DNA of 64,000 bases from Rhodanobacter sp. (lineage in GTDB: Bacteria; Pseudomonadota; Gammaproteobacteria; Xanthomonadales; Rhodanobacteraceae), in assembly GCA_004298045.1 (NCBI GenBank), contig SCRM01000021.1:310001-374000 (forward strand), given 5' to 3'. The stretch's first letter is position 1, and the number at the start of each line of letters is the position of its first letter. Of the stretch, positions 27,081 through 39,754 are shown one piece after another. The notes beneath the pieces were generated by a model that ran no database searches, was not told where the DNA came from, and worked only from the letters and a program-made list of their open reading frames with translations. A program made the translations under genes and the position numbers.

Positions 27081-27809
27081 TCAACACAAGCCGCCATTGA
27101 CGGCCAACACTTGCCGGGTGATGTAGCCCGCGTCCGGGCTGACGAGGAAAGCCACCGCCGCAGCCACCTCTGCCGGTGTGCCGGCGCGCGCGGCGGGAAT
27201 CATCTGCACGATCTCGGCGACGGGTACCTCGGGGGCGAGCAGGTCGGTGTCGATAAGGCCGGGTGCGACGCAGTTCACCGTGATGCGGCGCTTGGCAAGC
27301 TCCACCGCCAACGCCTTGGCCGCGCCGATCACACCGGCTTTGGACGCACTGTAGTTCACCTGCCCGCGGTTGCCGACAAGGCCGGAGACTGAGGTGATGC
27401 ACACGATGCGACCGGGTGCGCGGCGACGGATCATGGGCATGACTACCGGGTGCAGCACGTTGTAGAAACCGTCGAGGTTGGTGCGCAGCACGCGGTCCCA
27501 GTCCGCGTCGGTGAGTGCGGGGAAGGCCGCATCGGCGGTGATGCCGGCGTTGCACACCACGCCGTAATACGCGCCGTGCGCGGCGATGTCGGCCTCCAGG
27601 GCATATCGGCACGCATCGCGGTCGGCAAGATCGAACTGCAACACCTGCGCGCTGCGGCCGGCTTGAACGATCTCGGCGTGGACAGCGTCGGCAGCGTCGC
27701 GCCGGGTGCGGCAATGCAGTGCGATGTCATAGCCGTCGCGAGCAAGCCGCATGGCGATGGCGCGACCGATGCCGCGGCTGGAGCCAGTCACCAGAATGCG
27801 GTCAGTCAT
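27081..27809 (-). CDS. apeQ: 3-oxoacyl-ACP reductase of the aryl-polyene cluster (ApeQ-like)
   Basis: SDR ketoreductase of 242 residues with the NADPH motif LVTGSSRGIGRAIAMRLARD, NAGIT, and the catalytic Ser/Tyr/Lys in CITSVSGLVGNRGQVNYSASK. It resembles FabG but is the last gene of the polyketide operon, so it should reduce the beta-keto group after each extension of the polyene. The start at 27809 overlaps the dehydratase gene by 8 bp; the frame is open further upstream without family similarity. Confidence 0.88.
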   Translation of the reverse strand: MTDRILVTGSSRGIGRAIAMRLARDGYDIALHCRTRRDAADAVHAEIVQAGRSAQVLQFDLADRDACRYALEADIAAHGAYYGVVCNAGITADAAFPALTDADWDRVLRTNLDGFYNVLHPVVMPMIRRRAPGRIVCITSVSGLVGNRGQVNYSASKAGVIGAAKALAVELAKRRITVNCVAPGLIDTDLLAPEVPVAEIVQMIPAARAGTPAEVAAAVAFLVSPDAGYITRQVLAVNGGLC

Positions 27810-28260
27810 GGGAAAGCGCCGTGGCGAAGAGAGCGGTGGCATCGGGTGGGCTGAAAACCGTGAGCTTGGCTTCGGCCAGCACGCCGGGGGCCTCGATGCG
27901 GCAGACAAACACGCCCATGCCGGTGGCGTCGCTGAATTCGCGGCGTGCGCTTACCGTCAAGGTGCTGCCTGGCGGGAAGCCCGTGACGTTGCAGCGGTAT
28001 TGCCGGGTACCGAGTAGCAAGCCGAGGCGCACCGGGCGACCTTTGGCACGCGCCGTGCAGCCTGCCCACGCGGCAATGGCCTGCGCCATCAACTCCACCC
28101 CCGCCCATGCGGGCAATCGCCCGTCGGCGGCGTGCAACAAGCCATCGGCCGCCACCTTGTGCGTACAGCGCACATGGTCGGCGTCGTGTTCGAGCACGGC
28201 GTCGAGCAGGATCATGTCACCGGCGTGCGGGATCAGTTCGGCGATCGGCCAAGGGCTCAT
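27802..28260 (-). CDS. apeP: Hotdog-fold dehydratase of the aryl-polyene cluster (ApeP-like)
   Basis: A 152-residue hotdog-fold protein starting MSPWPIAELIPHAGDMILLD, where the HxGxMxLLD segment is typical of ApeP-type beta-hydroxyacyl-ACP dehydratases, with PAWAGVELMAQAIAAWAG forming the central helix. In characterised aryl-polyene systems ApeP pairs with ApeI as a heterodimer; the partner is at 30769-31119. Overlaps the ketosynthase gene by 4 bp (ATGA) and the reductase by 8 bp. Confidence 0.85.
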   Translation of the reverse strand: MSPWPIAELIPHAGDMILLDAVLEHDADHVRCTHKVAADGLLHAADGRLPAWAGVELMAQAIAAWAGCTARAKGRPVRLGLLLGTRQYRCNVTGFPPGSTLTVSARREFSDATGMGVFVCRIEAPGVLAEAKLTVFSPPDATALFATALSHD

Positions 28261-29435
28261 GGCGTATCCCCGAAGATCAGGCTGGCGTTGTTGCCGCCGA
28301 AGGCAAACGAATTGCTCATCAACCAGTGCGGTTGGCCGGGTTTCAGCCGGGTGCCGGGTGCAACGAAGTCGAGCGCGGGCAAGCTGGCATCGAGCAGGCC
28401 TTGGGTGCAGTGCGGCGGCAGCCGGCCAGCATCCAGCGCCAGCCAGCAAAAGGCGGCTTCGAGTGCGCCGGCGGCGGCCAGTGTGTGGCCGGTCAGCGCC
28501 TTGGTCGACGAGCACGGCACGCCGTGTGGGAACACTGCCGCCATGGCGCGCGCTTCCATCGCGTCATTGAGCGGTGTTGCCGTGCCGTGCAGGTTGACGT
28601 AGTCGATCGCCCCGGGGCCGAGTTGCGCCCGGGCGAGAGCGGTCAACATCGCGTCGCGGGCACCGGTGCCGCCCGGTTCGGGCGATGACATGTGATAGGC
28701 GTCCGAGCTGGCGCCTGTTCCGGCAAGGTGCACCGGGCCGCGCTCGTGGGTCATGAGGAACAGCGCTGCCGCCTCGCCCAGGTTGATGCCGTGCCGATCG
28801 GCCGCGAACGGGCGACAGTGCTCGCCATCCAGCGCACCGAGCGCATGAAAGCCATTCAGTGGCAAGCGCGTCAAGGCATCGACGCCGCCGCAGACCACGG
28901 CATCGCACACCCCGGCATCGAGCAGACGCTGCGCGCTGATCAGTGCCCGCGCGCCCGCGGTGCAGGCCGTGGAAATGACGTAGCACGGGCCTTCGCTGCC
29001 GAGCCAGTCGGCAAGGCACTGCGCCGGGTCGGAAAGCTCCTGATCGCGATAGTGATAACCGCGCGGCCATGCGCCGGTCTGCCGGTAACCCGCGTGTCCG
29101 ACGGTGGCCTCTTCGATGCCTCCGGTGCTGGTGCCGAGCACGACGCCGATGCGCAACCTGCCGTAGTGCGTCGCCGCCGCCTGCAAGTCCGGTTCGATTT
29201 GGTGTGCCGCCGCCAGCAACAAACGGTTGCAGCGGTTGTCGTGGGCCCACAGCGTTGCCGGCAATGCGGGAAGCTCGGCGTGCACCCGGCCAACCGGCGG
29301 CGTGAAGCCTGGGATCCAGCCGGGCGTCGGCACAAGGCGATCGGTGTCGCCGGCAAACAGCGCCTGCGCCACGGCAGCCCGGTCGGCACCGAGGGCGCAC
29401 ACGATACCGAGCGTGTTGAGGTAGGCGGTACTCAT
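28257..29435 (-). CDS. apeO: Ketosynthase of the aryl-polyene cluster (ApeO-like)
   Basis: Thiolase-fold beta-ketoacyl-ACP synthase of 392 residues with a complete Cys-His-His triad: C158 in VISTACTAGARAL, His in NLHGTATPLND (about 290) and His in SSTKALTGHTLAAAGALEA (about 325). In known systems ApeO pairs with the chain-length factor ApeC, here at 32550-33269. The N-terminus is atypical for FabF (MSTAYLNTLGIVCALG). ATGA overlaps on both sides. Confidence 0.87.
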   Translation of the reverse strand: MSTAYLNTLGIVCALGADRAAVAQALFAGDTDRLVPTPGWIPGFTPPVGRVHAELPALPATLWAHDNRCNRLLLAAAHQIEPDLQAAATHYGRLRIGVVLGTSTGGIEEATVGHAGYRQTGAWPRGYHYRDQELSDPAQCLADWLGSEGPCYVISTACTAGARALISAQRLLDAGVCDAVVCGGVDALTRLPLNGFHALGALDGEHCRPFAADRHGINLGEAAALFLMTHERGPVHLAGTGASSDAYHMSSPEPGGTGARDAMLTALARAQLGPGAIDYVNLHGTATPLNDAMEARAMAAVFPHGVPCSSTKALTGHTLAAAGALEAAFCWLALDAGRLPPHCTQGLLDASLPALDFVAPGTRLKPGQPHWLMSNSFAFGGNNASLIFGDTP

Positions 29436-30142
29436 GCCGGTTTGCGGGCAACCACGTTCACCAGTGTCTCCTCCCGGCGTCCGGGCGGTGGCGGCTGGCG
29501 CAGGTGCAGGCGTTCAAGCAGGCCGAAATCCCGCGCGCGGCTCCACCACAGGTATGGCAGTGAAACCTGGGCATCGCCGAAAACAAAACCTTGTGCACGC
29601 AGCATGGTGAGGTACTCCGGTGCGCTCTTTTGCACCTGCATCGGGTGCCGGAAAAACCAGCGGATCACCCAGGTGTCGATGTACGCACGGGTGGACTCGG
29701 CAAGCAACAGGGTTCCACCGGGCTTGAGCACGCGCCAGAACTCCGCCAACGCATCCTCCTGCTCCACCAGATGATGGAACACCTGATGGCAGAACAGCAC
29801 ATCCACGCTGGCATCGGGCAGATCGATGGCGGCGCAGTCCCCCAGCACGAGTTCCACCGCCACCCCTTCGCGCGCAGCTTCGGCGCGCGCCCGTTCGATG
29901 CTGACCGGGTCGGCATCCAGCCCCACCAGGCGCCTTGGTGAAAACACGCGATCGAGCAGGCGGAATGACCGCCCTTGGCCACAACCCACATCAAGCAAGG
30001 TGTCGGTATGCGGCAACGCGCCGGCGAGCCAGGCCAGGTCTTCAATGGCTACCCGCAACACGTGGCGTTGCCAGGTGCGGCTGGCGAGAAAACGAAACCC
30101 CAGGCGCGTGTCCGGGACATAGGTGGGGCTGGCGTAATTCAT
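29432..30142 (-). CDS. SAM-dependent methyltransferase in the aryl-polyene operon
   Basis: Class I methyltransferase of 236 residues. The SAM-binding motif I is TLLDVGCGQGRSFRLLD, with the acidic post-motif VGLDADPVS, motif region DVLFCHQVFHHLVEQED and EFWRVLKPGGTLLLAES. It may methylate the aryl head-group; several aryl polyenes carry methyl or methoxy groups on the ring. Start at 30142 overlaps the thioesterase stop (ATGA). The precise target is inferred. Confidence 0.82.
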   Translation of the reverse strand: MNYASPTYVPDTRLGFRFLASRTWQRHVLRVAIEDLAWLAGALPHTDTLLDVGCGQGRSFRLLDRVFSPRRLVGLDADPVSIERARAEAAREGVAVELVLGDCAAIDLPDASVDVLFCHQVFHHLVEQEDALAEFWRVLKPGGTLLLAESTRAYIDTWVIRWFFRHPMQVQKSAPEYLTMLRAQGFVFGDAQVSLPYLWWSRARDFGLLERLHLRQPPPPGRREETLVNVVARKPA

Positions 30143-30570
30143 GGCTTGGTGAGGGCAAGTTCGACGGCGTGGACAAAGGCCGCGGGCGAAACCAGCTGCA
30201 TGGCGCCGTCGGCGAGGCTCACCGCAACTTGCACCGTGCTGGCACGGGTCAACCGCGCGCCACTTTCGGCATCGCTGATGAGGTAATGGATTTTCAGCCG
30301 GTTTTCCCATTCGACGAGGTCGGCCCGCAGGTTGAGGCGTTGGCCAAAACGCGCCGCGTGCGCATAGCGCAGTTGCAGGTCGATCACCGGCCACTGATAA
30401 CCAGCCTCCTGCATCGCGCGGTAGCCGTAGCCGATGTGGTCGAGCAGCGCACAGCGGGCAATTTCAAGATATTTCACGTAATGCCCGTGCCACACCACGT
30501 GCATCGAGTCGACATCGAAAAACGGCACCGTCAGCGCGGTATCGACGTGCAGTACACCGGGCTTACGCAT
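30139..30570 (-). CDS. Hotdog acyl thioesterase (YbgC/4HBT type, ApeK-like)
   Basis: A 143-residue single-hotdog protein. The active-site segment VPFFDVDSMHVVWHGHYVKY fits the 4-hydroxybenzoyl-CoA thioesterase family pattern. It would release or edit acyl chains from the carrier protein. I start at the ATG at 30570, since the 59 codons open upstream have no family similarity and coincide with a small remnant ORF. SD-like GGGAGG lies just upstream. Confidence 0.85.
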   Translation of the reverse strand: MRKPGVLHVDTALTVPFFDVDSMHVVWHGHYVKYLEIARCALLDHIGYGYRAMQEAGYQWPVIDLQLRYAHAARFGQRLNLRADLVEWENRLKIHYLISDAESGARLTRASTVQVAVSLADGAMQLVSPAAFVHAVELALTKP

Positions 30571-30772
30571 CGGCGGCCTCCCGACAAGGGGGGAAGGGGA
30601 ACCGCTGCAGCGGCGCATGCGGGCACCGTTGGCCGAGTCGGTCGGCATGACGTTGCGCGCGAGCATCAACGGGGTGTTTGCGCAGGTCGGCGCGAGTTGG
30701 CAAGGCGCTGCGGGTAACGGCGGGGGGCCCACCGTGCTCGCGTTCACCCGCCCAGTGGCGTGTTGTGGTCAT
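30563..30772 (-). pseudogene. 69-codon remnant, probably the truncated start of a second (ApeJ-type) acyltransferase
   Basis: The frame starts at an ATGA overlapping the dehydratase stop and ends overlapping the thioesterase start by 8 bp. It begins MTTTRHWAGEREHGG; an HWA....E start is usual for LpxL-like lipid acyltransferases, which occupy this place (between ApeI and ApeK) in aryl-polyene clusters. After about 15 residues it becomes Arg/Pro-rich and low in hydrophobic residues, unlike any acyltransferase. The simplest reading is an internal deletion of about 0.8 kb or more that kept both coupling signals. The assignment rests on a very short match. Confidence 0.45.
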
Positions 30773-31119
30773 GCCGGCTGCTCCAGCACGAGGCGTCCGG
30801 AGGAGTACGCCGTGGCGCCGTCAAGCCACGAGAAATGCAGCTTGTTGCGCGCATGGTCAAAGCGCAGCGACAGCGTGACTTGCTGACCGGGCAGCAGCAG
30901 GCGCTGGAACTTCAGCGCCTCCATGTCACGACAGGCAGCAGGGGTACCGAGGTATTGCGCCGCGAGCGTGAGTGCCCAACCGACCTGCACCGCGCCGGGC
31001 ACCACCGGGTGGCCCGGGAAGTGGCCGACGAGAAAGGCGAGGTCGCGACGTATCAGTACCGTCACGGTGCAATCGTCGCCATCGCGGTGCACGCCAAGGA
31101 TGGTGGGCAGCTCGATCAT
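30769..31119 (-). CDS. apeI: FabA/FabZ-like dehydratase of the aryl-polyene cluster (ApeI-like)
   Basis: A 116-residue hotdog protein with the dehydratase signature LVGHFPGHPVVPGAVQVGWA, whose His is catalytic in FabZ-type enzymes. It is expected to work as a heterodimer with the ApeP-like protein. Start at 31119 (MIELPTILGVHRDG) overlaps the COG4648 stop by 4 bp; the long open frame upstream is not protein-like. Overlaps the small remnant ORF by ATGA. Confidence 0.87.
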   Translation of the reverse strand: MIELPTILGVHRDGDDCTVTVLIRRDLAFLVGHFPGHPVVPGAVQVGWALTLAAQYLGTPAACRDMEALKFQRLLLPGQQVTLSLRFDHARNKLHFSWLDGATAYSSGRLVLEQPA

Positions 31120-31661
31120 GCGCGTGCCCGCACCCGCTTGCGGATCAGCCATTCGCCAATGAACAGTGGACCCATGATGAAGTACACGAGGAAGCCGTTG
31201 TACAGCGTCCACCAGGTGAGCGGTGCCCACAGCGTGAGCGCGGCCGAAGCGGCAGCGTTCCACACGAAGAAGCCGACCCAGACCCAGGTCACCTTGCGCG
31301 TATACGGGATGGCGACGTCCGGCAGTGCTGGCTCGCGCACGCGCGCGATGCGTTCCACCAACGGCGGCCCGAACTTCAGGCTGAGGCCGAACGCGGCGAG
31401 CAGCAGCAGGCTGATGAGCGTGGGGTACCAGCGCAGCAGCATCGCCTCGCCGCTGGCTGCGAGCAGCGCGCAGTAGGCCAGCGCCGCACCCAGCATCCAG
31501 CGCCCGCCCGGTTCGCGCGACAGGCTCGGGGCGCGGATCAGCCACACCGCGCCGAGTGCCAGCGCAAACACCGGCGGCGCGATGTGGTCCATGCCGTAAT
31601 ACACAAAAAACGGATACAGCACGCCTGCCAGCGGCAGCGCAATGTTCAGGACGCGATGCAT
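31116..31661 (-). CDS. COG4648 family membrane protein (ApeG-like)
   Basis: A 181-residue protein with about five to six hydrophobic helices (ALPLAGVLYPFFVYYGMDHI at the N-terminus; WWTLYNGFLVYFIMGPLFIG at the C-terminus), matching the uncharacterised COG4648 proteins found in nearly all aryl-polyene clusters. Its role is unknown; it may hold the synthase at the inner membrane. In the E. coli-type order an AMP-ligase gene follows it, but here the ApeI-like gene follows directly. Confidence 0.8.
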   Translation of the reverse strand: MHRVLNIALPLAGVLYPFFVYYGMDHIAPPVFALALGAVWLIRAPSLSREPGGRWMLGAALAYCALLAASGEAMLLRWYPTLISLLLLAAFGLSLKFGPPLVERIARVREPALPDVAIPYTRKVTWVWVGFFVWNAAASAALTLWAPLTWWTLYNGFLVYFIMGPLFIGEWLIRKRVRARA

Positions 31662-31789
31662 GGGCTTTGAGTGCGGGTGGCCAAGGCGGCATGGCTGGGC
31701 GCGGTGTTGGCGCTGCCTTCGAGGTTGGGCGTGCCGACGATGCGGCACGCATGGTCGCGTTCAGGCGCAATCGGGGCGTTGAGACTCAT
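31646..31789 (-). CDS. 47-residue ORF of unknown identity, possible deletion remnant
   Basis: Reads from an ATGA overlap with the acyltransferase stop and ends 16 bp inside the membrane-protein gene, so it fits the overlap chain at both ends. The N-terminus is MSLNAPIAPERDHACRIVG. I do not recognise it. There is no membrane helix, signal peptide or carrier-protein DSL motif. It sits where other aryl-polyene clusters have one or two acyl-carrier genes. Either a genuine small protein or a scar left by deletion of a neighbour. Confidence 0.35.
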   Translation of the reverse strand: MSLNAPIAPERDHACRIVGTPNLEGSANTAPSHAALATRTQSPCIAS

Positions 31790-32574
31790 GGCGTGGCAAG
31801 CTCCTTGGCATACAGACGGTGCAGATGGTCGGTCAGGTGACGCGCGGCGATCGGTGGCGGCAGATTTTGCGCAAAGTCGACCGGCCGGCACGGCACGCCC
31901 ACGCGCAGTTGCACCTGCACGCGTCGCGGCGGGATGCGATACCACGGTTCCGCCTTGGTAAGGGTGGTGGGGGCAACGCGCACGAATACGGGCAGCACCT
32001 CGCGCGCTCCGCGCAGCGCGATGGCGGCGGCGCCGCGCTGGAAGCGGGGCGCGGTGCCGGGTGGCGTGCGCGTACCCTCGGGAAACACCAGCAGGCATTC
32101 GCCGGCGTGCAGCGCAGCGGCCGCGCGTTCCAGCGTTTCGAGCTCGCCGTCGTTGCCGATGTATCCAGCAGCACGCATCGGACCGCGGGTGAACGGATTG
32201 CGCAGCAGCGCGGCCTTCACGATGCAATTGGCCTGCGGCACCTGCCCGAGCAGAAACACCACGTCGATCAGCGACGGATGATTGGCGACGATGAGCTGGC
32301 CGGGGCGACCAAGCCGTGCGCTGCCTTCGATGCTGATGTCCAGCACGCGCGTCGCGCGCATGAACCACGCGTGCAGGCGGAACGCGCCACCGACCGCTGC
32401 GCGGGCCCGCTGCCGCCGTTGCACCGGATGGCCAGGTACGCAGGCCAGCAGCGGCAACATGGCGGCCAGCAGCAGGCCACCGAGGCCGAACAGCACGAAG
32501 CTGGCGCCGGTCGCCAAAAGGCGCCACGCCCACGCATCGCGGCGAGCGGTCAATGCGTGCGCAGCCAAGTCCAT
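31786..32574 (-). CDS. 1-acyl-glycerol-3-phosphate-type acyltransferase (ApeD-like)
   Basis: A 262-residue membrane-anchored acyltransferase of the PlsC fold. An N-terminal hydrophobic helix (about 15-40) is followed by IVANHPSLIDVVFLLG, where the NHxxxxD motif is catalytic, and LLVFPEGTRTPPGTAPRFQR, the substrate-binding FPEGTR block. Probably transfers the polyene or a fatty acyl chain to a glycerol or sugar anchor. Start at 32574 lies 25 bp inside the chain-length-factor gene. Confidence 0.85.
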   Translation of the reverse strand: MDLAAHALTARRDAWAWRLLATGASFVLFGLGGLLLAAMLPLLACVPGHPVQRRQRARAAVGGAFRLHAWFMRATRVLDISIEGSARLGRPGQLIVANHPSLIDVVFLLGQVPQANCIVKAALLRNPFTRGPMRAAGYIGNDGELETLERAAAALHAGECLLVFPEGTRTPPGTAPRFQRGAAAIALRGAREVLPVFVRVAPTTLTKAEPWYRIPPRRVQVQLRVGVPCRPVDFAQNLPPPIAARHLTDHLHRLYAKELATP

Positions 32575-33269
32575 CGGCGACCCTCGCAAGCATGATGAAT
32601 CCCGGTTTGTGCCTGCAGCATGGCGCGCAGAAAATCCAGCGCGTGTGGCCACGCGCAAGGCGGCTCTTCCGCGCGGTGCGACAGCTCAAGGCGCCAGTCG
32701 TCACCGTGGCCAAGGCGCAGGGCGAGCGCGTGCGAGAACGGCACGTCGCGCACCCATGGCGCATACGCAGCCGGCGGCAATTCCTCGGCCACCACAACCA
32801 GCGCCGCGGGCGCGCCAGCAGCCAGTTGCAAGACGCCTTCCAGCACCGCATGTTCGAAAGTGTCCGTGGCACCGGCAATGGCGGTGGATTCCCCGTGCTG
32901 ACCGCGCAGGATCGACCACTGGCCGGCAATGGCGTTGTGGACGGAAAGCCCGAACGCCGTCGGCGACAACGGTTCCCCAGCCGCAATGTTCCCCAGCAAT
33001 TGCCAGATCCGCGTGGTTTCGCCGTAGTGCGAGCCGAACACGAAGGGCAATTCTTCGCCGGCAGCGCACAGCGGCCACGCCGTGTTGAACACCATGCGTG
33101 CCATGCGGCTCAGGCGACGGCGCTGCAGCGGTGGCAGGAACGCGCAATCGGGCTGCAGCGTGCCGTCATCTGCCACCGCGCGGGGTGCCGCTACCCAGGC
33201 CTGCCACGCAGCGGCATCCGTGAGCCCCGGTGCCCAGGCTTGCCAGCCTTCGATGCGAAATGCCGTCAT
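32550..33269 (-). CDS. apeC: Ketosynthase-like chain-length factor (ApeC-like)
   Basis: A 239-residue protein corresponding to an N-terminal half ketosynthase domain (ketoacyl-synt_2 type). It has FGSHYGETTRIWQLL and FGLSVHNAIAGQWSILRG, which align with the region ahead of the usual active site. No Cys stands where the nucleophile should be (TAIAGATDTFEHAV). In studied aryl-polyene systems the homologous protein forms a heterodimer with ApeO and sets chain length. Overlaps the ketosynthase stop by 4 bp. Confidence 0.8.
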   Translation of the reverse strand: MTAFRIEGWQAWAPGLTDAAAWQAWVAAPRAVADDGTLQPDCAFLPPLQRRRLSRMARMVFNTAWPLCAAGEELPFVFGSHYGETTRIWQLLGNIAAGEPLSPTAFGLSVHNAIAGQWSILRGQHGESTAIAGATDTFEHAVLEGVLQLAAGAPAALVVVAEELPPAAYAPWVRDVPFSHALALRLGHGDDWRLELSHRAEEPPCAWPHALDFLRAMLQAQTGIHHACEGRRWTWLRTH

Positions 33270-34513
33270 GTACCAGCCTCCGCGCAGCGGCGCAGCAGCA
33301 ACGCCGCACAGCTTCCACCGAAACCGAAGCTGGTGCTGAGCACGCTCTCGATCTGGGCCGCACGGTTGGCTTCGAGTAGCGGCGCGGCCGCAAAGGCCGG
33401 GTCGCGGGCGTCGATCTCGGCGCCGGCGGCGAGCAGGCCATGTTGCAACATCAGCACGCAGGCAACCGCATCCAGGGCGCCCGCCGCCTGCGGCGCGTGG
33501 CCAAGCAAGCCCTTGAGCGAAGACATCGGCGGTACTGGCGTCTGGCGCTCGGCGAACACCCGCGCGATCGCCTGCCACTCGGCAAGATCGCCCGCGGTAC
33601 CGCAGGCGTGGGCGTTCAGGTAATCCGGCGAATGGCGCGCTCCCGCCAATGCGCTGCGCATGGCGTGTGCAATGCCGGCGCTGCCCGAGGCCACCATGTT
33701 GTCGGCATCCGTCGCGCTGCCGTAGCCGGCAAGTTCGGCCAGCACGCGGGCACCGCGCGCTTGCGCATGCGCCAGCGATTCCAGCACCAGCACACCGGCA
33801 CCTGCGGCCAACACCAAGCCGTCGCGATCACGGTGGAACGGCCGCGCGGCGTGCGCGGGATCAAGTTGAGTGGACAGTGCACCCATTGCGTCAAACCACA
33901 TCGCGGTGCTTGGATGCAGTTCGTCGGTGCCGCCGGTGATGACCACCTCCTGCCGGCCGAGGCGGATCAGGTCTAGTGCGTGGCCGATGGCGTGGGCACC
34001 GCTGCTGCATGCGGCACTCAGGGTGTAGCTGACGCCGCGGAGACCGTAGGCCAAAGCCAGGCTGGCCGAAGGCGCGCAACTCATGCCGAGTGGCACGATG
34101 AACGGCGACAGCTTTGCAATGCCTTTGGCGCGATGGCTGGCCAGCGCACGTTCGTGTTCGCTGAGCGCGGCACCGCCACCGATGACGACCCCGACACTGG
34201 GCTGCGCGAGTTGCGCGGGCACCAGGCCGGACTGGGCGATCGCCTCGTTTGCGGCATGCCAGGCATAACGCGCCGGGGCGCCCATGAACCGCCGCAGTTT
34301 GCGCGGTGGTTCGTCCGGCAACGCGACTGCGTCGACCGGTCCACCTACCCGACCGCGCATGCCGAGCGACGCGAAAGCCGGCATGCGGCGCAGGCCATGC
34401 CGCCGTTCGCGCAACGCCGCCAGCAATGCCGCGCTGCCAACGCCGACACAGGACACCGCGCCGATGCCGGTCACCACCACGCGCTGCAAACCGTTGGCGT
34501 CGTGCACGGCCAT
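33266..34513 (-). CDS. Additional FabF-like ketosynthase
   Basis: Ketosynthase of 415 residues with C169 in TLSAACSSGAHAIG, a His in LNAHACGTAGDLAEW (ACGT replacing the usual GTGT) and a His in SSLKGLLGHAPQAAGALDA. The C-terminal FGFGGSCAALLL is a slightly changed FGFGGTNA motif. The triad is intact, so it is probably active, but the altered loops suggest a specialised role such as priming from the aryl starter. The E. coli-type cluster has no obvious equivalent. TGATG junction with the preceding ketosynthase. Confidence 0.82.
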   Translation of the reverse strand: MAVHDANGLQRVVVTGIGAVSCVGVGSAALLAALRERRHGLRRMPAFASLGMRGRVGGPVDAVALPDEPPRKLRRFMGAPARYAWHAANEAIAQSGLVPAQLAQPSVGVVIGGGAALSEHERALASHRAKGIAKLSPFIVPLGMSCAPSASLALAYGLRGVSYTLSAACSSGAHAIGHALDLIRLGRQEVVITGGTDELHPSTAMWFDAMGALSTQLDPAHAARPFHRDRDGLVLAAGAGVLVLESLAHAQARGARVLAELAGYGSATDADNMVASGSAGIAHAMRSALAGARHSPDYLNAHACGTAGDLAEWQAIARVFAERQTPVPPMSSLKGLLGHAPQAAGALDAVACVLMLQHGLLAAGAEIDARDPAFAAAPLLEANRAAQIESVLSTSFGFGGSCAALLLRRCAEAGT

Positions 34514-35736
34514 CAGCCGACCGCCTTGAAGATCAGCGAGGTATTGATGCCGCCGAACGCGAAGTTGTTGTTCATTACCAGCCCGGTTGCCAGGGTGCGC
34601 CCGTCGCCGGTGATGTAATCCAGCTCGGCGCAGTCTGCCGCGCGCTGTTCGAGGTTCAAGATGGGCGCAAACCAGCCTTCACGCATCATCTCGATCACCC
34701 ACCACGACTCCAGCGCGCCACAGGCGCCCAGCGTATGGCCGCTGTAGCTTTTCACCGCGCTGATCGGTACCCGGGCGCCAAGCACTTGTGCGGTGGCTTC
34801 GCTCTCTGCGGCATCGCCGCGGTCGGTGGCCGTGCCATGCGCGCTGACATAGCCGATCGCGTTCGCCGGCAGGCCGGCGTCGTCCAGAGCCAGACGCATC
34901 GCCACCGCCATCGTGGCTGCGGTCGGCTGGGTGATGTGGGCACCGTCGGCATTGCTGCCGAAACCCACGACTTCAGCGTGGATCCGGGCACCGCGTGCCT
35001 TCGCGTGTTCGTACTCCTCGAGGATCAAGGTTCCCGCGCCTTCACCTACGACCAGGCCGTCGCGGTGGGCATCGAACGGGCGCGGCGTCAGGGTCGGGGT
35101 GTCGTTGCGCGTGCTGGTGGCAAACAAGGTGTCAAACACGGCGACGCCGGGTCCGGAGAGTTCTTCGGCGCCGCCGCACAGCATCAACGTTTGTTTACCG
35201 TAGCGGATCGCCTCGTAGCCATAGCCGATCGCCTGACTGCCCGACGTGCACGCGCTGGAGGTGGGAATGACGCGGCCCTTGAGGCCGAAGAACACACCAA
35301 TGTTCACCGCCGTGGTGTGACTCATCATCTGGATATAAGTGGTGGCGGTGACGCCCTGCATCGAGCCGGTTTCCAGCATGTGGCCCATTACCCGCACTGG
35401 CTCGACGCTGCCGCCGGAAGAGCCGTAGGCGACACCCATGCTGCCATCACGGATGCCGGGATCGTCGAGCAGCCCGGCGTCACGCAACGCGCGCTCGCTG
35501 GCAGCGACGGCGAGCTGTGCCACGCGACCCATCGAGCGGGTTTTCTGACGCGGCCATGGCGGCGCGGCGAAGTCGTCCACCGGGCAGCCAAGGCGACCGT
35601 TCAGCGCGTCGAAATAATCCCATTCGGGCATGCGTCGCACGGCGTTGCGGCGGGCATGGAAGCGGGCGGCAATCGTGGGCCAATCGTGGCCAAGCGGCGA
35701 AATGCCCCCCATGCCGGTAACGACGACGCGCTTCAT
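34513..35736 (-). CDS. apeR: FabF-like ketosynthase (ApeR-like)
   Basis: Ketosynthase of 407 residues starting MKRVVVTGMGGISPLG, with C163 in IPTSSACTSGSQAIG, His in YVSAHGTATDRGDAAES and His in AVKSYSGHTLGACGALE, and the C-terminal FAFGGINTSLIF. In characterised systems ApeR acts as a homodimer, likely for early extension steps. Start at 35736 overlaps the exporter stop by 4 bp; a TTG/ATG start further up would enter the exporter gene. Confidence 0.87.
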   Translation of the reverse strand: MKRVVVTGMGGISPLGHDWPTIAARFHARRNAVRRMPEWDYFDALNGRLGCPVDDFAAPPWPRQKTRSMGRVAQLAVAASERALRDAGLLDDPGIRDGSMGVAYGSSGGSVEPVRVMGHMLETGSMQGVTATTYIQMMSHTTAVNIGVFFGLKGRVIPTSSACTSGSQAIGYGYEAIRYGKQTLMLCGGAEELSGPGVAVFDTLFATSTRNDTPTLTPRPFDAHRDGLVVGEGAGTLILEEYEHAKARGARIHAEVVGFGSNADGAHITQPTAATMAVAMRLALDDAGLPANAIGYVSAHGTATDRGDAAESEATAQVLGARVPISAVKSYSGHTLGACGALESWWVIEMMREGWFAPILNLEQRAADCAELDYITGDGRTLATGLVMNNNFAFGGINTSLIFKAVG

Positions 35737-38105
35737 GCCGGGTCTCCATGGCAAGGGCCGAGGTTGGCCCGGCTCACCGGCACCAGCAGAGCGGTGAAGC
35801 CGATGCCCAGCAACAAGGTCAGGCCAAAATCGCGCAGCGCCGGCAGGGAGCTGAGCGAGAGCAGGCCGAAGGAGAGCAGGGCGGTGAGGGCGGAAAGCAG
35901 CACGCTGGCGTACATCGCGCCGGGACGGTCGACGGTGTGCGGTTCGCCTTCAAACAGGAACACCGCGTAATTCGCACCCACGCCAAGCACCAGCATCAGC
36001 GCCATCCAGTGGAACAGCGTCAGCGGTTGACCGAAATAACCGAGCGTCGCCAGTGTCAATGCAATGCCGAGCGCCGGCGGCGCCATCACGCGCGGCATAT
36101 GCCGCCAGCCGTAACGCCAGCCGAATACCGGCACGATGGCGAGCATGGCGGCGATCAGCCACAGGCTGGCGTAGCCGCGGTAGCGGCCGAACAGCGCGGA
36201 GACGCTGGCGGGTTTGTCCACCAGCGTGACGCCGGACAGGCCCGCTGCGGCGCTGGCCAGCACGCGTTCACCGGCAGCGCCTTGCGGCAGCACCAGCGAG
36301 GCGCAGCCGTGCTGGTTGCAGCCCATCCACAACTGTCGGAATGGCGTCGCCAGCGGCGTGCGCAGCCAAGCGTCGAGGGTCAGCGGGGTGCCGGGCCAAC
36401 TGGCGAGCCAGGCGTCGATCGCGGCAGCGCGGAAGCCGGCGTCGGCAAGGGTTTTGCGCAAACTGTCGGGGTGGTCGAACCAGCGCGCGAACACCGCGTG
36501 GTTCTGCGTTTGCTGGCTCATTGCCGGCACCATGCTGGCAAGGCCGAGGAAACCGTCGAGCTGGTCGTCATCCACCAGCTGTTGCAACCGCGTCTCCAGC
36601 ACCTGCTCGTGGCGCAACGTGGCGTCCTCATCGGCACCTTGCACCAGGTAGAACTGGCTGGCGTTGCCCAGGCCGGTGATGGCCCGTATGCGGACTTCCT
36701 GTGCAGTGAGGCTTGCCGGCTGGGCGATCAGGTTGTGCACGTCGTCGTCGTGTTTGAGCCGCAGCCAGCCGGGTATGGCCAGTGCCAGCACGATGACGGC
36801 CAGCACGGCACCACGCCAACCACGGGCCGGCCGTGCCAGGGTCTGCTGCAGGGAATGCGCGCCGCGCACCAGCAGCGGCGTCATCGGCTTGGCCGGGTGC
36901 GCCAGCAGCGCCGGCAACAACCAGAACACACTGGCGCACGCGGCGCTCATGCCGGCCAGCGCAAACACCGCCATCTGGCGCAGCGCCGGGAAGGGCACCA
37001 GGCCGAGCAGCGCGTAGCCGAGCAGCGAGGTCACCAGGGCCAGCAGCAGCGCGCTGCGTACCTGGCGGATGCCGGTTCCTGCTTGCCAGCGTGTCCCGGC
37101 GTTGGCGCGTGCAGTGAGGTACTGGATGGAGTAATCCACCGCCTCCCCCAGGAGTGCGGCACCAAACACCAGCGTCAGCAGGAATACCTGCCCAAAGACC
37201 AGCAAGGTTACCGTGGTGGCCGCCACCACGCCCACGACAGTCGAAAGGAAAGTGAGCGCGAGTGGGCCGACGGTGCGAAACACCGCAAGCAGCAGCAGGG
37301 CGATGCCGGCGGTGGAAATCCAGCCCACCATGTGCACGTCGTGCTCGGCGCCGGCACGCGCCGCGGCGGCATAGAACACGGCCCCGGTGCGCAGCAGGCG
37401 CACATCGGGCCAGTGCGCGCGCAATTGCGCTTCGGCGTCGGCGAGTGCGGACAGCGCACGGCGCTGCACGTCGTTGGCGTAGGCCGAACCCGCCAGCATC
37501 GCCGTCACCAGCACCTGCGTTTGATCGCCGGCGTGCGCCACCAGCAGGTCATCCTCCGGCATCAGCGGCGAGCGGTTCCACGGCTGGGCGGCGAGGAAGT
37601 GCTGCAAGGTGCCGAAGGGATCCTCCGCCAGCGTCACGCCAACACCAGTGAGAAACGGCTCGTTCAGCCGCTGCGCCAGCGCCTGTGCCAAGTCGAATCC
37701 GGGCTGGGAAAGCGCGGTGCGATCACTGGCCGTCAAAAGCCAATGGCGATGCGCGAGATAGGGGGCGCTCAGTTGCGCCAGGTCGAACGGCGGGAGCTCG
37801 GCGGCGACGCTGGCGAACACTTTGTGCGCGGCCAGCGCCCGGCCGAGGGCGCGCGCGGCCGCCTTCGCGTGTGCGTCATCGGCGCTGGCGACCACCAGCA
37901 CCATGCGGTCGCCGTTGGCATGCGCCAGGCGCGCCACGGCGGCCTCGGCCAGCGGGTTTTGTTCGGTGGCCGGCAGCATGGCGAGCAGGTCGGTCTGGAT
38001 CGGCAGCGGCCCACGGCCAAACAACAACCATGCGCCGACTGCCGCGACCAGCAGCGTGGTCAGCGCAAACGCCCCGGCGCGCAGCTTGATGCCCGGCGTG
38101 CTCAT
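35733..38105 (-). CDS. MMPL/RND-type exporter (ApeM-like)
   Basis: A 790-residue polytopic protein. One N-terminal helix (about 10-30) is followed by a large periplasmic domain, a block of five to six helices (about 245-410) with LLGEAVDYSIQYLTARA, then a second periplasmic domain and a second helix block near the C-terminus (LMLVLGVGANYAVFLFEG). These D/N-Y motifs are typical of MMPL transporters such as HpnN. It probably exports the finished aryl-polyene lipid across the inner membrane, handing it to the LolA-like protein encoded just upstream. Confidence 0.87.
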   Translation of the reverse strand: MSTPGIKLRAGAFALTTLLVAAVGAWLLFGRGPLPIQTDLLAMLPATEQNPLAEAAVARLAHANGDRMVLVVASADDAHAKAAARALGRALAAHKVFASVAAELPPFDLAQLSAPYLAHRHWLLTASDRTALSQPGFDLAQALAQRLNEPFLTGVGVTLAEDPFGTLQHFLAAQPWNRSPLMPEDDLLVAHAGDQTQVLVTAMLAGSAYANDVQRRALSALADAEAQLRAHWPDVRLLRTGAVFYAAAARAGAEHDVHMVGWISTAGIALLLLAVFRTVGPLALTFLSTVVGVVAATTVTLLVFGQVFLLTLVFGAALLGEAVDYSIQYLTARANAGTRWQAGTGIRQVRSALLLALVTSLLGYALLGLVPFPALRQMAVFALAGMSAACASVFWLLPALLAHPAKPMTPLLVRGAHSLQQTLARPARGWRGAVLAVIVLALAIPGWLRLKHDDDVHNLIAQPASLTAQEVRIRAITGLGNASQFYLVQGADEDATLRHEQVLETRLQQLVDDDQLDGFLGLASMVPAMSQQTQNHAVFARWFDHPDSLRKTLADAGFRAAAIDAWLASWPGTPLTLDAWLRTPLATPFRQLWMGCNQHGCASLVLPQGAAGERVLASAAAGLSGVTLVDKPASVSALFGRYRGYASLWLIAAMLAIVPVFGWRYGWRHMPRVMAPPALGIALTLATLGYFGQPLTLFHWMALMLVLGVGANYAVFLFEGEPHTVDRPGAMYASVLLSALTALLSFGLLSLSSLPALRDFGLTLLLGIGFTALLVPVSRANLGPCHGDPA

Positions 38106-38713
38106 GGCGCGCTGAGCGCCCCGCTTTCGAGTGTGCTGAGTGCCCCCGCGGCCCGCGTGCTGGCGAACCGGATCTGCGTGCGGGTGCCGTCCTGCATGTC
38201 GATCGTGATGCCTTGCAGGTAGCGGTCGCCGATCAGCGTGATGCTGGTCAGCACCCGCGCCACACGCGCCTGCTTCGGGGTAAACCGCAGCACCCAGTCG
38301 GCAGATGTGCCGCTGGCCACCACGTCGAACTGGCGCAGCGCTGCGTCCACCTTGCCACCCAGCATGCCTTGCAGCATCTGCGACACCTGGCTTACGCCAC
38401 GGTCGCCGTGCATCGCATGCAGGCGGCCGTCAGCATCAACTCTGGCCGTGCGTGTGCCAGTCAGCGCCAGGGTCTGCGCAAAGGGCGTCACGGTTTGCCA
38501 CAGCATGCCGCGGCCCAGCACGAACAACAGGTGGCCAGTGCTGACCTGCGGCTGATCGAGTGCCGGGGCGGTGCGGGTCTGGATGAAATCGGCGCGTACG
38601 GCCGGGTGCTGGCCCAGTTCGTCCAGGACCTGGTGCAGCAGTGGCGCGCTGCCTTGTGCCTGCGCGAACGGGGCAAGCAGGCAGGCGAGCAGGACAAGGA
38701 TCAGGCGGCGCAT
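38102..38713 (-). CDS. LolA-like outer-membrane lipid carrier protein (ApeL-like)
   Basis: A 203-residue protein with a clear signal peptide (MRRLILVLLACLLAPFAQAQ) followed by a LolA-type fold: VRADFIQTRTAPALDQPQVS, GHLLFVLGRGMLWQTVTPF and the C-terminal ITIDMQDGTRTQIRF. It likely shuttles the polyene lipid through the periplasm from the MMPL exporter. Overlaps the glycosyltransferase gene by 13 bp and the exporter by 4 bp. Confidence 0.85.
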   Translation of the reverse strand: MRRLILVLLACLLAPFAQAQGSAPLLHQVLDELGQHPAVRADFIQTRTAPALDQPQVSTGHLLFVLGRGMLWQTVTPFAQTLALTGTRTARVDADGRLHAMHGDRGVSQVSQMLQGMLGGKVDAALRQFDVVASGTSADWVLRFTPKQARVARVLTSITLIGDRYLQGITIDMQDGTRTQIRFASTRAAGALSTLESGALSAP

Positions 38714-39471
38714 GCAGGCTCCCGAAGTGGACAGCGACGCAGCAGCCGCACGGCGCGCGGCAGCATGCCAAGCAGCAGGCGGGTGTGCATGGCCGAGATG
38801 CGCAGGTTGTCGCGCCACAGGCGAAAGTGCGACAACCCGTTCGCAGGGTAGATCACGCGCGTCGGCAGGTTGACGATGGACAGCCCGCGCCAATACAGCC
38901 GCACGGCGATTTCGGTGTCGAAATCCATCCGTGCCGGTGGCGTGTGTGCCGCGATTTCCGCACAACTGGCAGCGAGCGGGTAAAGCCGGTAACCGCACAT
39001 CGAGTCCTTGATCGCCAGCGACAAGGTTTCCAGCCACACGCAGACGTGGGTGAGGTAGCGGCCATAGAGGCGCCCGCGCGGCACGCTGGCGTCGTAACGC
39101 GGTACACCGCAGATCAGCGCTTCCGGTTGCGCGTGGCCCGCGGCCAGGAAGCGCGGCACGTCGGCAGTGTCGTGCTGGCCGTCGGCATCCACTTGCAGCG
39201 CATGGCTGAATCCGCGCTCGCGGGCCGCACCCAGGCCGGCGGCCACGGCCGCGCCCTTGCCGCAGTTGGTCGGCAAACGCAGCAGGGCCACACCGTCGCG
39301 GCACGCCAATGCGTCGAGCACGGCGCGGGTTGCCATGTGGCTGCCATCATCGACCAGGATCACCGGCAGCCCATGCGCAAGCAGCGCGTCGACTGTGGCG
39401 CCCACCGTGGTGCCGTGGTCGTAGACCGGAATCACGGCACAGGAAACGCAGTGGCCGATGACGTCAGGCAT
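38701..39471 (-). CDS. Family 2 glycosyltransferase of the aryl-polyene operon
   Basis: A 256-residue GT-A glycosyltransferase: AVIPVYDHGTTVGATVDALL at the N-terminus, LVDDGSH, and the metal-binding acidic motif QVDADGQHD, then GYRLYPL and RMDFDTEIAVRLYWRG. In E. coli-type clusters this domain is fused to an acyltransferase (ApeJ). Here it is free-standing, and the acyltransferase half seems to survive only as the short remnant at 30563-30772. No membrane helix. Lies 13 bases after the ACP gene. Confidence 0.85.
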   Translation of the reverse strand: MPDVIGHCVSCAVIPVYDHGTTVGATVDALLAHGLPVILVDDGSHMATRAVLDALACRDGVALLRLPTNCGKGAAVAAGLGAARERGFSHALQVDADGQHDTADVPRFLAAGHAQPEALICGVPRYDASVPRGRLYGRYLTHVCVWLETLSLAIKDSMCGYRLYPLAASCAEIAAHTPPARMDFDTEIAVRLYWRGLSIVNLPTRVIYPANGLSHFRLWRDNLRISAMHTRLLLGMLPRAVRLLRRCPLREPACAA

Positions 39472-39484
39472 GTGCAGGTCCCGC

Positions 39485-39754
39485 TCAACGCACCAGAAGT
39501 TGCCGCACCGCCCCGATCACGTCGCCCACGGTGCGCACGCTCTTGAAGTCCTCGGGCTTGATGCGCATGCCGGTCATCTCCTGCACCTGGATGGCAAGGT
39601 CGACCGCGTCAATGCTGTCCAGCCCGAGGTCGGTGAACAGGTTGGCCGCCGGCGTGACCTGGGCTGGTTCGACCTCGAAAATGTCCTGCAGCACTTCGCG
39701 CAGGCGCGCAAGAAGGTCGCTGTCGGTGATGTCGGCGGCAAGAAGGGTGCTCAT
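39485..39754 (-). CDS. Acyl carrier protein of the aryl-polyene operon (ApeF-like)
   Basis: An 89-residue four-helix carrier protein; the 4'-phosphopantetheine attachment site is S47 in LFTDLGLDSIDAVDLAIQ. It is the only carrier protein in the operon, whereas well-studied aryl-polyene clusters have two. First gene of the operon, with AGGAG ahead of the ATG. It should carry the growing polyene between ketosynthases, dehydratases and reductase. Confidence 0.92.
   Translation of the reverse strand: MSTLLAADITDSDLLARLREVLQDIFEVEPAQVTPAANLFTDLGLDSIDAVDLAIQVQEMTGMRIKPEDFKSVRTVGDVIGAVRQLLVR

Follow-up and report, generated by a model that had tools for sequence, protein, structure and literature searches.

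A Rhodanobacter aryl-polyene operon without starter-loading genes probably depends for its priming on remnants of a second pathway, of xanthomonadin type

The window analyzed here is a stretch of 64,000 nucleotides from Rhodanobacter sp. (assembly GCA_004298045.1, contig SCRM01000021.1, positions 310,001 to 374,000). In our numbering it corresponds to G000:C10:310001-374000, G000 being the source genome, a draft of 3.26 Mb in 22 contigs that is 95.9% complete. On its minus strand the window carries an operon of 15 genes, running from an acyl carrier protein (ACP) gene (ACP1, 39754) to a ketoreductase (KR) gene (27081), that comprises elongation, modification and export genes of an aryl-polyene (APE) pathway. 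This operon is referred to as operon B, and a xanthomonadin-type locus found elsewhere in the genome as locus A; both labels are also used for relatives. All 15 genes are open frames, and they mostly overlap or nearly abut, the two larger gaps being of 133 and about 200 bases. An earlier note, made from the sequence alone, had named these genes and placed them in a single operon, and Pfam and NCBIfam matches together with similarity to relatives bore this out. The features are as follows (KS, ketosynthase; CLF, chain-length factor).

39485..39754, minus strand: ACP1, an ApeF-type acyl carrier protein of 89 amino acids (PF00550, 52 bits), clustering with the ACP1 of relatives and outside the ApeE/ACP2 clade
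38701..39471, minus strand: GT2 glycosyltransferase (PF00535)
38102..38713, minus strand: LolA-like carrier (PF19574/PF03548)
35733..38105, minus strand: MMPL-like exporter, 67-79% identical to the same gene of congeners and 26-28% to the xanthomonadin-type exporters of family relatives
34513..35754, minus strand: KS1, FabF-like ketosynthase (NF006587, 700 bits, cut-off 470) with Cys/His/His; putative ApeR position, from the gene order of G018
33266..34513, minus strand: KS2, FabB-like ketosynthase (PF00109/PF02801; best NCBIfam model, NF005935, below cut-off) with Cys/His/His
32550..33269, minus strand: CLF, a Cys-less chain-length-factor-like protein, ORF16/ApeC-like (Ketoacyl-synt_2, PF13723, 213 bits)
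31786..32574, minus strand: PlsC-type acyltransferase, ApeD-like (PF01553)
31653..31785, minus strand: gap at the position occupied by the ApeE-type starter ACP in congeners, from comparison with them
31116..31652, minus strand: COG4648-like membrane protein in the ApeG position, an open frame sharing 73-82% identity with its counterpart in congeners
30769..31119, minus strand: ApeI-type dehydratase (PF22818, 41 bits)
30563..30772, minus strand: 69-codon relic of the operon's LpxL-type acyltransferase, with about 14 first and 30 last residues recognizable and the middle deleted
30139..30570, minus strand: thioesterase of the 4HBT type, ApeK-like (PF13279)
29432..30142, minus strand: S-adenosylmethionine-dependent methyltransferase (PF08241)
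28257..29435, minus strand: KS3, the ketosynthase nearest to the xanthomonadin-type KS (NF006618, 481 bits, cut-off 407), in the clade of that KS (A_KS); putative ApeO position
27802..28260, minus strand: ApeP-type dehydratase (PF22817, 74 bits)
27081..27809, minus strand: ketoreductase, ApeQ-like (PF13561/PF00106)

Inspection of motifs confirmed that KS1, KS2 and KS3 each have the Cys and the two His motifs and that the CLF has none of them, as had been described. The core of an Ape operon is therefore present: ketosynthases with a Cys-less CLF, ACP, KR, ApeI and ApeP dehydratases and LolA/MMPL export, the exporter being recognized by similarity to relatives only. The Pfam search gave no match for the MMPL-like exporter or for the COG4648-like protein, and their names come from similarity and from position in relatives. 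The ApeI dehydratase of the window stands alone; in the more distant operon of G018 (L076:5391-6863) a ligase and an ApeI dehydratase are fused (PF00501 + PF22818). Neither an ApeH ligase nor an ApeE-type starter ACP was found in operon B. The window was also correctly reported to lack a ligase, a second ACP and a chorismatase: the searches of G000 gave 11 AMP-binding, 9 ACP and 1 chorismatase matches, of which just one ACP lies in the window.

The search of the remaining genome proposed by the earlier note yielded candidates for all three missing functions, which supports its option that starter activation is encoded elsewhere: a ligase in contig C8, and a second ACP (ACP2) and a chorismatase in contig C11. 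At C11, which is locus A, the chorismatase gene (333 amino acids) adjoins ACP2 divergently, followed by an LpxL-type acyltransferase (PF03279) and a convergent GT2, the xanthomonadin-type trio of chorismatase, ACP and LpxL-type acyltransferase being present together. ACP2 reached 134 bits with NF006617 (cut-off 70). The chorismatase belongs to the FkbO/Hyg5/XanB2 family (PF21168, 112 bits, above cut-off), it scored 189 bits with TIGR04444 against a curated cut-off of 325, and its relatives of solved structure are 5ag3 and 5a3k, which we take to be Hyg5, and FkbO 4bps. According to the available part of PMC3949708, the product of such an enzyme (3- or 4-hydroxybenzoic acid, 3-HBA or 4-HBA) is not predictable from sequence alone, and XanB2 also supplies 4-HBA for coenzyme Q8; the chorismatase alone therefore proves nothing.

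The C8 ligase (456 amino acids) is a stand-alone gene between tsaC-like and purD-like genes. A tsaC homologue adjoins the ligase in the eight loci examined (G000, G002, G010, G012, G013, G020, G030, and G035), which indicates that its separate location is old. Homologues of this ligase adjoin ACP2, chorismatase or LpxL in compact polyene clusters of G043, G046, and G048 (38-55% identity). Further homologues are found on plasmids of Roseomonas haemaphysalidis (45%) and Azospirillum ramasamyi (43%); there the ligase gene lies between those for ACP and LpxL in one block of ACP, ligase, dehydratase, LpxL-like, LolA, MMPL, KS, CLF and KR genes. The C8 ligase is a likely candidate for the starter loader, comparable to Xcc4015, ArcT and ApeH by description. 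Pigment formation in Xanthomonas requires the ligase Xcc4015, and ArcT, a homologue of it, acts on 3-HBA in vitro (PMC3949708, available part).

Alternatively, operon B could use another ligase or a starter activated with coenzyme A (CoA), or could have its starter carried by ACP1; the genes on C8 and C11 would then serve otherwise, the chorismatase in ubiquinone synthesis. Ten further AMP-binding places exist in G000, one of them MbcS/benzoate-CoA-like below cut-offs, and a chorismatase occurs without the ligase in G034, G041, G047, G056, and G059, the last four also lacking ACP2. However, two of the ten places sit in long non-ribosomal peptide synthetase (NRPS) frames on C6, and the other eight best fit other families (FadD, FadD3, Acs, PrpE, long-chain, steroid-type, MbcS-like, and exosortase-associated), four of them above cut-off; the C8 ligase is the one with relatives in polyene clusters. 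We consider this explanation improbable. Similarly, the suggestion of the earlier note that the starter differs and the product may be unusual gained no support, as the retained starter genes are of the kind found in hydroxybenzoate-primed xanthomonadin and arcuflavin pathways. Nor was there support for an unusual starter from an ammonia lyase or a CoA route, no ammonia-lyase or UbiC search having been made.

Comparison with the genus indicated what is special to the operon of G000, which is the loss of the ApeE-type ACP and of LpxL and not the absence of a ligase. Among 12 genomes of the genus at least 90% complete, ligase, ACP2 and chorismatase were present in 12, KS1 in 9 and A_KS in 11. 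None of the nine KS1-bearing genomes has a ligase in operon B, and a ligase-less operon B is normal for the genus (8/8 of the other congeners with the operon at that completeness). The ApeE-type ACP and LpxL are both in operon B in 8 of these 9 genomes; only G000 lacks both. The ApeE ACP of congeners lies between the acyltransferase and the COG4648 gene; G000 has none at 31653-31785, where a search for a relic gave only weak and scattered matches (best E 0.23, in a search of four short stretches, as are the other E-values given here) that were not accepted. The LpxL gene of congeners lies between ApeI and the thioesterase, the place of the 69-codon relic (30563-30772) in G000. The last 30 residues of this relic are 53% identical to G010 (E 4e-6), and with 21 of 25 homologues its last 40 residues gave a score that none of 200 shuffles reached, the exceptions being the distant L076, L077, L145, and L146. 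As a control, the two other frames of this DNA were compared with L066 and L063, and three of these four comparisons were ordinary; the exception, frame 0 against L066, scored 41, a value reached by 1 of 200 shuffles, while the relic scored 68.

Locus A has also been reduced. In G010 and several other relatives its order is hemF, KS, ORF16, GT2, LpxL, ACP2, chorismatase, glmU; in G000 (L120) hemF adjoins GT2 with no KS/ORF16 between them. Searches of G000 found neither A_KS nor an A-type exporter, the CLF of the window was the sole PF13723 match in the genome, and no A-type LolA, KR or dehydratase is present at locus A. Relics of A_KS and ORF16 sought in the C11 gap gave only weak, scattered matches (best E 0.001), which were not accepted. 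In G000, operon B has lost an ApeE-type ACP and LpxL, and locus A has lost its KS/chain-length-factor pair.

What G000 has lost from one locus has a close counterpart in the other, as the grouping of the proteins in trees indicates. In a KS tree of 104 rows, a quick build with a long-branch warning, KS3 and A_KS grouped together, apart from KS1 and KS2 (100). In an ACP tree of 76 rows, ACP2 and the ApeE-type ACPs formed one clade (100/100), apart from ACP1; this tree is built on few columns, many of its forks are unresolved and its bootstrap is unsettled. The trees leave out matches that cover less than 75% of the query or contain internal stops, and the same list served for the ratios of non-synonymous to synonymous substitution (dN/dS). 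For 20 pathway genes of G000, each compared pairwise with two or three congeners, dN/dS was 0.12-0.50 (ligase 0.28-0.36, ACP2 0.13-0.24, LpxL 0.22-0.26, KS3 0.25-0.31, CLF 0.14-0.17), compared with 0.10-0.14 for hemF. E. coli loses all colour when apeE is deleted, while part of it remains in apeF and apeJ mutants (PMC8253772, available part). The ACP missing from operon B is therefore of the needed kind, and a substitute is to be expected.

Both systems are widespread in the family. When 61 genomes were searched with six proteins (the ligase, KS1, the chorismatase, ACP2, A_KS from G010, and an A-type exporter), matches were obtained in 44 for the ligase, 25 for KS1, 48 for the chorismatase, 48 for ACP2 with weaker ApeE-type matches counted in, 47 for A_KS with weaker KS3-type matches counted in, and 44 for the A-type exporter with weaker B-type matches counted in. 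Many family relatives carry both system A (xanthomonadin type) and system B (window type). No A-type exporter was found in any of the 15 genomes of the genus, where matches were at most 171 bits versus at least 719 in 14 other genera of the family. A scan of contigs of named genomes with KS1 (best 80 loci, close kin left out, 15 of them examined, L143-L157) gave APE operons of other groups and, lower down, matches of 32-39% identity.

These data bear on the possibility of an ordinary split cluster, in which the C8 and C11 genes would be displaced starter genes of the same pathway and no merging would have occurred. The starter genes are indeed present and unlinked, the separation of the ligase is old, and the two arc loci of Azoarcus are likewise unlinked (PMC3949708, available part). 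The earlier note had held that linkage of a ligase and another ACP at one further locus, with standard xanthomonadin as product, would make this such a cluster: both genes were found, but in two further unlinked loci. On the other hand, many relatives have two KS/ORF16 pairs, two starter ACPs and two LpxL genes, an LpxL relic remains in the window, and A-type clusters with their own exporter occur without KS1. A simple split is therefore unlikely.

The occupation of equivalent slots was counted in the 22 genomes at least 90% complete that have both loci (G000-G006, G009, G010, G012-G014, G016, G021, G024, G025, G027, G029, G031, and G033-G035), leaving out the drafts G007 and G008 (87% complete) and G015, G019, and G030, which are without operon B. 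An entry requires 40% of the query length. Cut stretches hid A_KS in G024, G025, and G027 and ORF16 and the A-type GT2 in G025; these were filled from a further search, as was locus A of G031. The KS/CLF slot was occupied in both loci in 15 genomes, in A only in 4 and in B only in 3. For the starter ACP the figures were 16, 6 and 0, and for LpxL also 16, 6 and 0; for MMPL they were 3, 1 and 18, LolA being identical. Each of the five slots had at least one copy in 22/22 genomes, and the A-type ACP and LpxL were never missing. The ligase was present in 21 of the 22 (not G034) and the chorismatase in 20 (not G029 and G035). The five slots were picked after inspection of the data and the count is descriptive; in addition, because of shared ancestry, 22 genomes are not 22 independent events.

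An independent parallel to G000 was found in G031, a genome of another genus in one contig. It has lost A_KS/ORF16 at the same place, with recognizable pieces (E 2e-8 and 5e-9), and keeps ligase, ACP2, LpxL, GT2, and chorismatase. Its B remnant comprises LolA, MMPL, CLF, COG4648, KS3, and a KR in two pieces, with no ApeE or ACP1 in that stretch. In G016 the KS/ORF16 pair is absent from its place, and a distant KS/ORF16 (43%/31%) exists elsewhere. Contig C5 of the same genome (L132:5400-9293) bears a third, divergent KS/ORF16/KR/dehydratase/ACP cluster, with 31-43% identity to parts of A and B. The reverse is seen in the congeners G001, G013, and G014, which keep A_KS and ORF16 and have no KS1 or KS3 by genome search; their B stretches, that of G001 beginning at a contig end, contain only LolA, MMPL, COG4648, ApeI, and ApeP, plus KR in G014. 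In G025, locus A keeps KS/ORF16, ACP2, LpxL, LolA, COG4648, and the exporter, all missing from its B, which is also without the methyltransferase. The A exporter of G025 (G025:C3:764696-767014) has one in-frame stop, and in G027, which also has operon B, the A-type KR is in two pieces (L228:3790-4256); both are possibly decay of redundant A genes, or sequencing errors. In G001, ORF16 matches of locus A lie in two pieces on opposite strands (L117:5052-5675), suggesting a rearranged or broken chain-length-factor gene.

Operon B is probably without a starter-loading gene because the likely loader and carrier sit elsewhere, in a second and likewise incomplete system. We propose that operon B is probably the elongation, modification and export half of a pathway that relies for priming, in trans, on what is left of a xanthomonadin-type one. 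Building on the gene content, gene places, losses and relic described above, every reaction and every interaction in trans would be as follows, as predicted from gene content. The C11 chorismatase would convert chorismate into hydroxybenzoate, which the C8 ligase would adenylate and load onto ACP2 of C11, standing in for the lost ApeE-type ACP. KS3, acting together with the Cys-less CLF and assisted by KS1 and KS2, would add malonyl units carried by ACP1, and each double bond would be made by the KR and the two dehydratases. The methyltransferase and the thioesterase would finish the chain; GT2 and the PlsC-type and C11 LpxL-type acyltransferases would attach the polyene to lipid, and the product would be exported via LolA/MMPL/COG4648.

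Activation elsewhere is the best supported of the options considered previously and a mostly ordinary explanation of the gap; what is less ordinary is that two related pathways have been pruned in a complementary way. We lean slightly towards the view that two complete APE pathways have been fused by reciprocal loss into a working chimera, at least twice in one direction (G000 and G031) and in the reverse direction for KS-CLF in G001, G013, G014, and G025. In G000 and G031 an APE-type KS-CLF would act with an ACP and a ligase of xanthomonadin type. These genomes would then form a natural series in which modules for KS-CLF, ACP, acyltransferase and exporter are interchangeable.

Several observations weigh against priming in trans and its wider interpretation. 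G034, listed as 100% complete, has operon B, A_KS, ACP2, and chorismatase and no ligase at E<=1e-40, nor by a looser ApeH-type search that found the ligases of G000 and G035; the chorismatase is absent from G029 and G035. The absences in these three genomes imply that the pathway can do without ligase and chorismatase or that other enzymes replace them. Loading might also take place on ACP1 and not on ACP2, and ACP1-type loading occurs in vitro with low efficiency (PMC8253772, available part); the chorismatase may be kept for ubiquinone alone (PMC3949708, available part). The stretches of G001 and G013 showed no KR, a sixth slot, and ORF16 of G001 looks partial or rearranged. The source genome is itself a 22-contig draft of 95.9% completeness. 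Finally, the dN/dS values also span time before the losses, KS3 of G000 is on a long branch (0.54) that could reflect relaxed selection, and dN of G000 pairs is mostly above the congener values (G002/G004 vs G010). This branch and these values, together with the LpxL relic and the absence of the ApeE ACP and of A_KS/ORF16, would also fit a pathway decaying in G000, with no pigment made (aryl polyenes absorb near 420-470 nm). Yet the 15 genes are open, their dN/dS remains at 0.12-0.50 with catalytic motifs kept, and the observed losses hit slots filled by the other locus, so that we give decay little credence.

If priming in trans is correct, the seemingly incomplete operon is explained. It would also be a caution against taking missing starter genes as novel chemistry, and genome mining that scores clusters singly would label both halves incomplete. 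If the merging is real, it is a natural experiment on whether KS-CLF pairs of type II polyketide systems accept a foreign starter ACP, which to our knowledge has mostly been addressed by engineering so far. No report of such merging was found among the literature titles and abstract openings listed, subscription papers and preprint servers being outside the scope of that search.

The genes flanking operon B are apparently unrelated to it: a nucleotide-sugar epimerase/dehydratase-like gene and an FAD oxidoreductase on one side, and a Glu/Leu/Phe/Val-type dehydrogenase and methionine synthase parts on the other. Elsewhere in G000, a cluster resembling NRPS and polyketide synthase genes (C6:119900-136400) includes a free-standing ACP together with an AMP ligase of the exosortase-associated type (TIGR03098, below cut-off). 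Another ACP and a FabF-like KS lie at C3:186900-191500 (L030), near an apparent GHMP kinase and a mevalonate-pathway decarboxylase, as judged by eye. This pair was rejected as a second polyene KS since it falls on a long branch with KS1/KS2 and not with KS3/A_KS, although long branches may join falsely.

Among known systems, the closest to operon B is ApeA-R of E. coli (PMC8253772, available part), a correspondence that rests on gene order and description. They have in common ACP, KS-type CLF, ketosynthases, acyltransferase, COG4648 protein, two dehydratases, KR, thioesterase, LolA-like protein, RND/MMPL-type exporter, methyltransferase, and the GT2 part of ApeJ. In contrast to ApeA-R, the window is without the ApeH ligase and the ApeE-type ACP, has only a relic as counterpart of the ApeJ acyltransferase, and has one extra KS (KS2). 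Locus A resembles the xanthomonadin-type clusters of L. enzymogenes (ORF1-17; PMC3691225) and Xanthomonas (Xcc4014/4015; PMC3949708), in the available parts of both sources, by its chorismatase, ACP, acyltransferase, and GT2, and in relatives also by KS and ORF16. G000 differs from them in having no KS(ORF17)/ORF16 pair, as judged by syntenic place and own-genome searches, no A-type exporter, and an unlinked ligase. The arcuflavin system of Azoarcus BH72 likewise has two unlinked polyene loci, a XanB2-type chorismatase and an AMP-ligase; reciprocal loss between two systems, as proposed for G000, is not described for Azoarcus in the available part of PMC3949708.

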